The position numbers were made by a program, and so were the translations under genes. DNA of 64,000 nucleotides. Origin: Alloscardovia macacae (GTDB lineage: Bacteria > Actinomycetota > Actinomycetes > Actinomycetales > Bifidobacteriaceae). Under the pieces are notes generated by a model. That model searched no databases and was not told where the DNA came from. It saw only the letters and a list, made by a program, of their open reading frames with translations. The stretch lies in NCBI RefSeq assembly GCF_002259705.1, contig NZ_MWWT01000005.1, forward strand, positions 186,001-250,000, given 5' to 3'. Shown here one piece after another: positions 40,710-51,234 of this stretch (within the stretch, counting starts at the first letter, position 1; each line of letters opens with the position of its first letter).

Positions 40710-40755
40710 GCTCGGTGAGCATATGTGAACAGATGTGAGTAACCGTGTCGAACCC

Positions 40756-48799: not shown

Positions 48800-49237
48800 C
48801 TAGCCCTGCCAGTTCGGGTCTATGTTTTCGGGATTCATGCCGTAGAGGGATGCGAGCTGGCGGACTATCTCCATACGAATAAGGAGCTGAAGGTCTATGC
48901 GGTCTCTGGCCCTCGACTCGATGGGGCGTCGATAGAGCGCGATGCGCGCAGGGACCCCGTGCTCAGCGGGGAAACTTTGTGAAAGCTTCACGCGGAATTC
49001 TTCCCATGCGAGGGGATCTGATGGTGGGACATCCTCCACAGCGCATTCGACACGGGTGAAGAGCTCTGGCCATGCTCTCTTGAGCCGGGTCACCTGAGAA
49101 AGCACCTGATCATCAAAGTAGCCTGCAGATGTGCGGTACTGAGGAATATGAGTACCGAAGACAGGACGGCGAATGCCACGTCCATGAGGATTCCTATATG
49201 TGTGCTGTTCCCAAGGCAAAACCATACTAGCGAGCAT
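48800..49237 (-). CDS. Metallopeptidase-like protein with degenerate active site
   Basis: A 145-aa member of the small actinobacterial zincin-like family: RNPHGRGIRRPVFGTHIPQYRTSAGYFDDQVLSQVTRLKRAWPEL and FAVEDVPPSDP-type VECAVEDVPPSDP are typical. The expected zinc motif HExxH near the C-terminus reads RMEIVRQL here, so both histidines are missing and it cannot be an ordinary metallopeptidase. Convergent with DUF5719 and divergent from the HAD fusion gene. Confidence 0.75.
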   Translation of the reverse strand: MLASMVLPWEQHTYRNPHGRGIRRPVFGTHIPQYRTSAGYFDDQVLSQVTRLKRAWPELFTRVECAVEDVPPSDPLAWEEFRVKLSQSFPAEHGVPARIALYRRPIESRARDRIDLQLLIRMEIVRQLASLYGMNPENIDPNWQG

Positions 49238-49297
49238 ACCAGTTCACGCATACCATGCCACTTGATAGAATGGGGCATAATGAAACAAGGAGGCGAT

Positions 49298-50407
49298 ATG
49301 AGCAGTATGTATGTGAAGGGGGGCGGTGAAGTCCCTCATGCGGGTACAGTAGATGTATCGCTCTACGCTGCGGGAACAGGGCTCATAGCGTTCGACCTCG
49401 ATAATACTCTGGCACGTTCGAAGATGCCTATGCTCGAACATACGGCAGATCTTTTCGCATCTCTCACCCATATCCTTCCTGTCGCTATAGTGACGGGAGG
49501 TCGTTTCGAACTTATCGAATCTCAGGTTCTCGATGCGGTCCAGCAGAATGCATACCTCCCACATCTGGCTTTGCTGCCGACTACAGGAACCTCTTACTAT
49601 ACGTGGAATGGTCATGCTTTTACGCGTGAATATGCTGTAGAGCTGACTGCTGATCAGCGCAAACGAGCCTGCTGTGTCCTCGAAAAGTATGCGAAAAAGT
49701 ATGGCTTGTGGCAGGAGCCTGCAGAAGGTGGCCATATAGAGGACCGTGGGTCACAGATTACGTTTTCTGCCTTAGGTGCTCATGCTCGCGCGGACCGTAA
49801 AGAAGTATGGGACCCCGACGGGTCTCGCAGGGCTCCACTGGCGGCCCGTGCCCAGGAACTTCTGCCAGAACTGACTGTGCGCGTCGCTGGTGGAACGAGC
49901 ATAGATGTGTACTCGCGTGGTGTAGATAAAGCATATGCGGTGGAAAAGCTCGCAGAACTTCATCATATACGTGTACAGGATATCGTGTTCGTGGGCGACC
50001 GTATGACACCGGGGGGAAATGATTATCCCGCTGCACAGGCAGGTGTGCGCGCGCTACGTGTGGATTCTCCGCGAGATACGGAAGTATTTATGCAGGAGTT
50101 TATGGAGAGCTATACACGAGGACTGCGTATGAATGTGCGCACTCAGGAGCTGTGGGTGCATGGGGATCTCGTGGATATCTCTCCTACGGAATTTTCTCTT
50201 CTGTGTGCTCTTCTTCACTCGGGTGGGCGGGTAATGAGCAGACAGCAGCTACTCAGCGATGCATGGGGATATGCAGACTCCGGAGATACTCGACTTCTCA
50301 GTGTATCTATAGCACGTCTGCGTTCCATTATCGAGGATAATCCTCGCATGCCGCAGCGCATTCTCACAGTACGTGGCGGAGGATACCGCTTCGTGCATGC
50401 CGGATAG
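49298..50407 (+). CDS. HAD-IIB phosphatase fused to an OmpR/PhoB-type winged helix
   Basis: A 369-aa two-domain protein. Residues ~25-265 form a HAD-superfamily phosphatase with all four motifs: FDLDNTLA (Asp33, Asp35), VTGGR (Thr66), Lys211 in VDKAYAVEKL, and GDRMTPGGND (Asp234, Asp242); the cap is of the phosphomannomutase/sugar-phosphatase type. Residues ~274-369 are a complete OmpR-type DNA-binding domain: LVDISPTEFSLLCALLHSGGRVMSRQQLLSDAWGY, SVSIARLRSIIE and ILTVRGGGYRFV. The HAD takes the place of the receiver domain of a response regulator. Start ATG follows AAGGAGG by four bases. No histidine kinase is adjacent. Confidence 0.85.
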   Translation: MSSMYVKGGGEVPHAGTVDVSLYAAGTGLIAFDLDNTLARSKMPMLEHTADLFASLTHILPVAIVTGGRFELIESQVLDAVQQNAYLPHLALLPTTGTSYYTWNGHAFTREYAVELTADQRKRACCVLEKYAKKYGLWQEPAEGGHIEDRGSQITFSALGAHARADRKEVWDPDGSRRAPLAARAQELLPELTVRVAGGTSIDVYSRGVDKAYAVEKLAELHHIRVQDIVFVGDRMTPGGNDYPAAQAGVRALRVDSPRDTEVFMQEFMESYTRGLRMNVRTQELWVHGDLVDISPTEFSLLCALLHSGGRVMSRQQLLSDAWGYADSGDTRLLSVSIARLRSIIEDNPRMPQRILTVRGGGYRFVHAG

Positions 50408-50496
50408 GAATTCTCTTCTACGGAGTGTCGCGACACGGTTATTCACATCGGGTCACATATCCTCAAGAGGTTTTACTTTTCTGGATTTTTCGATAT

Positions 50497-51234
50497 ATGC
50501 TCTCTGATATGACGGTAGATATCCTCCAGATGGCGAGCATGGTCCTCTTCCCGAGGTCTTGTGCAGGCTGTGGAGCACGCGATAGTGTGCTCTGTGATGC
50601 CTGCTCTCAGCTTTTTCTTCGATGGCGGGAGCGTAGTATAGCGCACTCATTTACAGTCTTTTCCTGCGGGCAGTATACGCGTGCTGTGCGTAACGCTGTT
50701 CTGGCGTGGAAAGACCATGGAGATGAAGAGCTCGATGTTCTCTTTGCTGGCCTCCTAGCTGAGCGCATTATCTGTGTGCTGAAGAATATTCTCTCCACAG
50801 ATGTGCAGGTGTGCGTCGTTCCTGCACCATCATCGCCGAAATCTGTGCAGTCTCGTGGCCGAGCCCATATGAATATCTTATCCATACGTATAGTTCAGCA
50901 GATAAACGCGTATACGCAGGAGCAGGGGAGTAACTGCCGTGCGCATATGTGTCCGTGTCTTCACATCGACGCGAAAATACGTAAATCCGTTACCGCATCT
51001 CACCGTAAGGAACGTGCGGAGCGCCTGAGTAAGGGCCTCCTCTATGAGCCACAGCACGCTGGCGATGCTGAGGGGAGTAAGCGGTGTACTATCATTCTCG
51101 ACGATATAGTAACCAGTGGAGCCACTCTGCGCGCATGTGTGCGCTTACTGCGCTCTCGGGGAGAACATGTTCTGGCTGCGTTTACTCTCAGCGATGCAGA
51201 CAGGCACACTCCTGATAATGCCTACTATGCATGA
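50497..51234 (+). CDS. comF: ComF-family phosphoribosyltransferase-like protein
   Basis: A ~245-aa protein with an N-terminal zinc motif (CAGCGARDSVLCDAC) and a phosphoribosyltransferase fold whose PRPP loop is CTIILDDIVTSGATLRA. ComF is needed for DNA uptake in competent bacteria and its relatives occur widely without proven biochemistry. VVPAPSSPKSVQSRGRAHMNIL is a further family motif. The start is uncertain (50497 or 50509); no strong ribosome-binding site is visible. It follows the HAD fusion gene and overlaps umuC at the stops by 10 bp. Confidence 0.85.
   Translation: MLSDMTVDILQMASMVLFPRSCAGCGARDSVLCDACSQLFLRWRERSIAHSFTVFSCGQYTRAVRNAVLAWKDHGDEELDVLFAGLLAERIICVLKNILSTDVQVCVVPAPSSPKSVQSRGRAHMNILSIRIVQQINAYTQEQGSNCRAHMCPCLHIDAKIRKSVTASHRKERAERLSKGLLYEPQHAGDAEGSKRCTIILDDIVTSGATLRACVRLLRSRGEHVLAAFTLSDADRHTPDNAYYA

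Follow-up and report, generated by a model that had tools for sequence, protein, structure and literature searches.

The OmpR-type winged helix is among the commonest bacterial DNA-binding domains, and HAD enzymes and receiver domains share phospho-aspartate chemistry. The closest described system to the protein reported here is NnaR, an actinobacterial orphan regulator of nitrate and nitrite assimilation which consists of a HemD-like domain and an OmpR winged helix, so that the receiver is replaced by an enzyme-type domain with no known partner kinase (PMC6277429, PMC11162112), and in which the HemD domain is reported to be catalytically inactive (PMC11162112). Two further proteins are relevant, one to each of the domains described below: MtrA, which binds direct repeats with half-sites of the form K-T-n-A-C or GTCACA (PMC6265350, PMC13189361), and the single-domain α-phosphoglucomutase (α-PGM) of Lactococcus lactis (4bnd).

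We identified a gene joining an HAD enzyme to such a winged helix at 49298-50407 (+) of the window, by which we mean the whole 64,000-nucleotide stretch of Alloscardovia macacae DNA analysed here. It is one uninterrupted frame of 369 amino acids whose ATG (49298) follows a good ribosome site (AAGGAGG, 49287-49293) and, by eye, a likely -10 element further upstream (TAGAAT, 49266-49271; together 49266-49293, +). The original prediction of intact HAD motifs and a full winged helix in a single frame was borne out by Pfam, NCBIfam and the motif residues, and a Pfam search of the protein returned PMM (E 2.8e-9), Hydrolase_3 (2.3e-7) and Trans_reg_C (2.6e-22, residues 292-365) but no receiver, which supports the further claim that the HAD sits where a receiver would be. 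The HAD-IIB domain (residues 29-262; 49382-50083, +) is of the α-PGM/PMM type by its profile matches and by its sequence and fold match to 4bnd; it scores 62.5 bits against TIGR01484 (cut-off 41.8; residues 29-251) and has all the sequence features of this group (DxD, T/S, K, GD...GND and a C2B cap) as D33xD35, T66, K211, GD 233-234 and GND 240-242, so that every catalytic motif is present, as are R150, S201, D203, D234, N241 and D242. The OmpR/PhoB-type winged helix (residues 276-366; 50123-50395, +) scores 79.1 bits against PF00486 (curated cut-off 26.2) with both the recognition helix and the wing complete, and the recognition helix (residues 328-346; 50279-50335, +), SGDTRLLSVSIARLR, is placed by alignment and model. 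An AlphaFold2 model of the protein (pLDDT 93.6, pTM 0.89) contains two complete folds, and DSSP analysis of this places the last HAD helix at residues 258-272, followed by a joint of three residues (50069-50122, +, for helix and joint) before the first winged-helix strand at residue 276. The high pTM suggests that the two domains hold a defined arrangement.

NnaR and the fusion protein are alike in having an N-terminal enzyme-type domain instead of a receiver and a C-terminal OmpR/PhoB winged helix, but the HemD domain of NnaR is inactive while the HAD retains its catalytic residues, and NnaR is widespread in the actinobacteria whereas the fusion is limited to one genus. The model for uroporphyrinogen-III synthase-type proteins of this kind, PRK07239 (NF005568), matches the winged helix only (residues 270-365) with no HemD feature, and as judged from these profiles the fusion is NnaR-like in design and not a member of NnaR. 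MtrA is the best response-regulator model for the winged helix, and a tree also places it as MtrA-like, but unlike MtrA the fusion lacks the N-terminal receiver of a response regulator and an adjoining kinase, and it reaches 77.2 bits against a cut-off of 300 for the MtrA equivalog NF040689, over the winged helix only. The HAD resembles Lactococcus α-PGM (phmmer E 1.7e-38; Foldseek TM 0.88 by target length), with which it shares the HAD-IIB class, the C2B cap and a PGGNDYP motif, while the eukaryotic phosphomannomutases rank behind 4bnd as relatives. No enzyme/OmpR fusion is among the best 50 fold matches listed, and we found no HAD/Trans_reg_C regulator in the open-access literature. The earlier statement that such a regulator had not been characterised agrees, for the HAD version, with this search but does not hold for the general design, which is shared by NnaR; regulators that combine an enzyme domain with an OmpR winged helix are already known as a class, and the HAD protein is a new version of it.

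In a comparison set of one genome per species, full-length fusions with 63-65% identity were found in three congeneric species, G001, G002 and G003. The fusion is not a sequencing artefact because these species carry it at full length, and this counters the possibility of a missed stop between the domains. In a fifth species (G004) both domains are encoded at this locus, but a one-base frame change divides them between two overlapping frames (L010 1467-1620; L040 7479-7594), each part being otherwise intact. Its winged helix is 89% identical to that of G002, the differences falling at 3% of second and 46% of third codon positions, and this identity indicates that the split is recent, is an assembly error, or that the winged helix is still made.

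The HAD itself is found in 170 of 189 species of the family (E <= 1e-25). Among the matches listed, which cover all but the weakest 20 or so, no family HAD outside the genus extends through the winged helix, and about 165 sister-family species (again among the matches listed) have an unfused HAD gene before comF; since the HAD is unfused at the same locus in these, the fusion is a derived, genus-specific event. A sample of 396 genomes from the phylum included seven with a HAD match, the present genome among them, and no other fused HADs were seen in these, nor in 51 plasmid records and 10 phage records with HAD relatives. A scan of genome contigs identified a single distant relative, which matched just the HAD part. 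We also considered whether the 38-residue C-terminal tail of one unfused HAD (G014; L030 / L047), which resembles the first half of a winged helix, could be a decayed copy, but rejected this as 816 of 20,000 shuffles scored equally well and the resemblance is not significant.

The five HADs of the genus form one clade (support 100/100) on a stem of 0.80 changes per site, so that the fusion and the accelerated change fall on one branch. The winged helix clusters with MtrA from the congener G002 (88/79, with long branches) and is 47-51% identical to the MtrA winged helices of the family, and we suggest that an MtrA-type winged helix may have been attached at the end of an already established α-PGM/PMM-type HAD-IIB gene in the ancestor of the genus. 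A search of G000, G001, G003 and G004 gave nothing else above the MtrA cut-off. G002 is alone in the genus in having a complete MtrA besides the fusion (L218 5842-6612, +), followed by an apparent kinase gene that runs off the contig. In the outgroup G094, mtrA, mtrB, lpqB and comF adjoin each other; capture of mtrA in place as the origin of the fusion is nevertheless weakened by the family members which have kept mtrA, as in these it lies away from comF.

Codon-position differences between the fused species indicate purifying selection on both the HAD and the winged helix, the latter varying at 0.13-0.18 of second positions versus 0.49-0.60 of third positions. By homology to PhoB, the main positions of DNA contact are presumably retained as V336, R340, R342, T357 and R359, whereas the usual His and Arg/Lys/Gln would be replaced by S337 and A339. 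A neutral accident which left the winged helix as a functionless remnant might be argued from the restriction of the fusion to one genus and the frame change that splits the domains in one of five species, but is scarcely credible given the strong purifying selection and a recognition helix that is invariant across five divergent species. We regard the fusion, on sequence grounds, as a real and unusual candidate regulator conserved in one small genus.

All five species retain the catalytic residues of the HAD and its S/D sugar-binding pair. At eight positions, however, the fused proteins all depart from a residue that is conserved to at least 90% among 29 unfused relatives. Three of the lost residues, H91, W108 and Q161, occur in all 29 of these relatives and in the Lactococcus α-PGM as well, and their absence from all of the fused copies implies that the original activity may have changed. 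The genome also has conventional PGM/GlmM-family genes at two other loci (PF02878), so the fused HAD need not supply PGM activity. This combination of intact chemistry and altered specificity positions would fit recruitment as a sensor, and also an enzyme that is active on a new substrate. It is possible, though we doubt it, that the protein is a trigger enzyme whose HAD still works as a mutase or phosphatase and whose winged helix adds an action on DNA, reporting flux with no dedicated sensor: the conserved catalytic and sugar-binding residues and the fold match to 4bnd are consistent with this, but the three lost residues and the presence of conventional PGM/GlmM-family genes argue against it. 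We consider it unlikely that the HAD serves only for dimerisation or stability, with the winged helix a constitutive DNA binder needing no metabolite input. Here the variable joint between the domains (residues 263-275, the least conserved stretch at 46-62% identity), the near-identity of the G004 winged helix to that of G002 despite its own frame, and the inactive HemD domain of NnaR (PMC11162112) would all be accommodated, but the retention of every catalytic residue in five species is unexpected for a mere scaffold.

The reading we prefer, to which we would give a little less than an even chance, is that the fusion is a kinase-free, one-component regulator which arose in the ancestor of the genus and uses a former sugar-phosphate mutase as its sensor. 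The HAD would bind a hexose phosphate or bisphosphate, closure of the cap or formation of the phospho-aspartate would change its shape, and the last helix and three-residue joint would pass this change on to alter winged-helix pairing on DNA. The phospho-aspartate intermediate of HAD enzymes is normally short-lived; this suits catalysis better than signal storage and counts against the sensor reading to that extent, and because of it we think ligand-driven closure of the cap a likelier signal than a stored phospho-aspartate. A cap that closes on a bound sugar phosphate would be at least as simple a signal as a phospho-aspartate switch. In favour of a sensor are the full-length fusion in four of five species, with both domains in the fifth, the kept catalytic residues, the codon-position differences and invariant recognition helix of the winged-helix domain, and the conventional PGM/GlmM-family genes of the genome, as well as a model confident over both domains and the precedent of a receiver replaced by an enzyme-type domain in NnaR; the long HAD stem and the lost residues also fit a new role for the HAD. 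Against it are the poorly conserved joint, the lack of an operator seen at the gene's own promoter, and the separate frames in G004, which may mean that tight coupling is not needed there or may be an assembly error.

The order LCP, glycosyltransferase, DUF5719, divergent zincin, HAD and comF is common to the family members we inspected, and in the window the fusion gene is flanked by a divergent zincin-like metallopeptidase gene (48800-49237, -; PF06262) and by comF, with a likely start at 50497 (50497-51234, +; TIGR00201 E 3e-11, under the model cut-off). Inspection by eye of the short divergent region, which holds the gene's own promoter, revealed no direct repeat. An element that looked conserved by eye in this region was rejected as an operator for the fusion as it is explained as the -10 of a leaderless metallopeptidase gene, and a conserved internal start giving a free winged helix was likewise rejected, there being two conserved Met codons with no convincing ribosome site.

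A direct repeat, TTCACA-N4-GTCACA, is found at 50442-50457 (+) between the fusion gene and comF. It is one site of a genome-wide promoter class, GTTATYCACATNSGTTCACA (loci L150-L209), which has a second site in the window at 40714-40739 (-), and the repeat is probably not specific to the fusion gene. Genomes of the fused genus have 21-41 GTTATYCACATNSGTTCACA hits each with up to two mismatches versus 4-8 for a reversed control, and G002 has 12 exact copies. Of 62 collected sites, 42 have the start of an open reading frame 48-50 bases downstream, 31 of these at exactly +49, which implies leaderless messages. The genes concerned include comEA, comF, yraN (UPF0102), ssb, recA and those for CpaE/TadZ-like, DUF4244 pilin-like and SAF/CpaB-like proteins, along with an M23 peptidase, WXG100, an FtsK/EssC-type ATPase and several expanded families of unassigned function. 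We propose this class as a candidate natural-competence regulon of the family, including Tad-pilus and type VII genes, and found no description of it in the literature. In two species an inverted pair of repeat units lies directly 5' of a methionyl-tRNA-synthetase-like gene (G001:C9:268106-268146; G000:C1:187830-187880; L100, L106).

Orthologous genes in other genera are preceded by CACATTCGACCACA with the same +49 geometry (L221-L248, L139-L145; genera g5, g7, g15 and g16), with 16 exact sites in G018, nine in G008 and seven in G034, and this form is also found in G019, which belongs to a genus with no matching HAD. At one locus (G009:C32:107686-136110; L228, L234, L240) there are 73-base tandem units with CACATTCGCTCACA, while other genera have single promoter sites. 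The presence of the regulon in genera without the fusion indicates that it predates the fusion. It is very unlikely that the fusion protein activates the competence-type regulon which TTCACATnnGTTCACA defines, even though one TTCACATnnGTTCACA site lies between its gene and comF, its winged helix is MtrA-type and MtrA itself binds direct repeats, with GTCACA among its half-sites (PMC6265350, PMC13189361), and nothing else in G000, G001, G003 or G004 exceeds the MtrA cut-off. The change of the second half-site from GACCACA to GTTCACA also coincides with the fusion, the first half-site being already common to the unfused genus g5. Set against this are the occurrence of the same regulon and geometry in genera without the fusion, one of them without the HAD, and a repeat period of 10 versus 11 for MtrA. 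A better candidate regulator is an OmpR-type response regulator found across most of the family with 73-94% identity (L004 1483-2211, -; G000:C19:74740-75468), the gene for which is divergent from the WXG100 gene and adjoins it and the repeat in several lineages, with the repeat in the shared upstream region in the fused genus; this response regulator is, however, present too where there is no enrichment of the repeat. Judging by where the sites are found, the fusion probably does not regulate these genes. Still harder to credit is the combined proposal that a catalytically competent mutase senses through a phospho-aspartate in place of receiver phosphorylation and tunes a competence and DNA-uptake regulon from beside comF.

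Taken with NnaR, the fusion suggests that actinobacteria have repeatedly recruited enzymes as sensors onto the OmpR winged helix. The unfused orthologues in about 165 sister-family species provide a clean before-and-after comparison for this recruitment, and the HAD/OmpR hybrid would show if an enzyme intermediate or a ligand-bound state can replace the input of a kinase.
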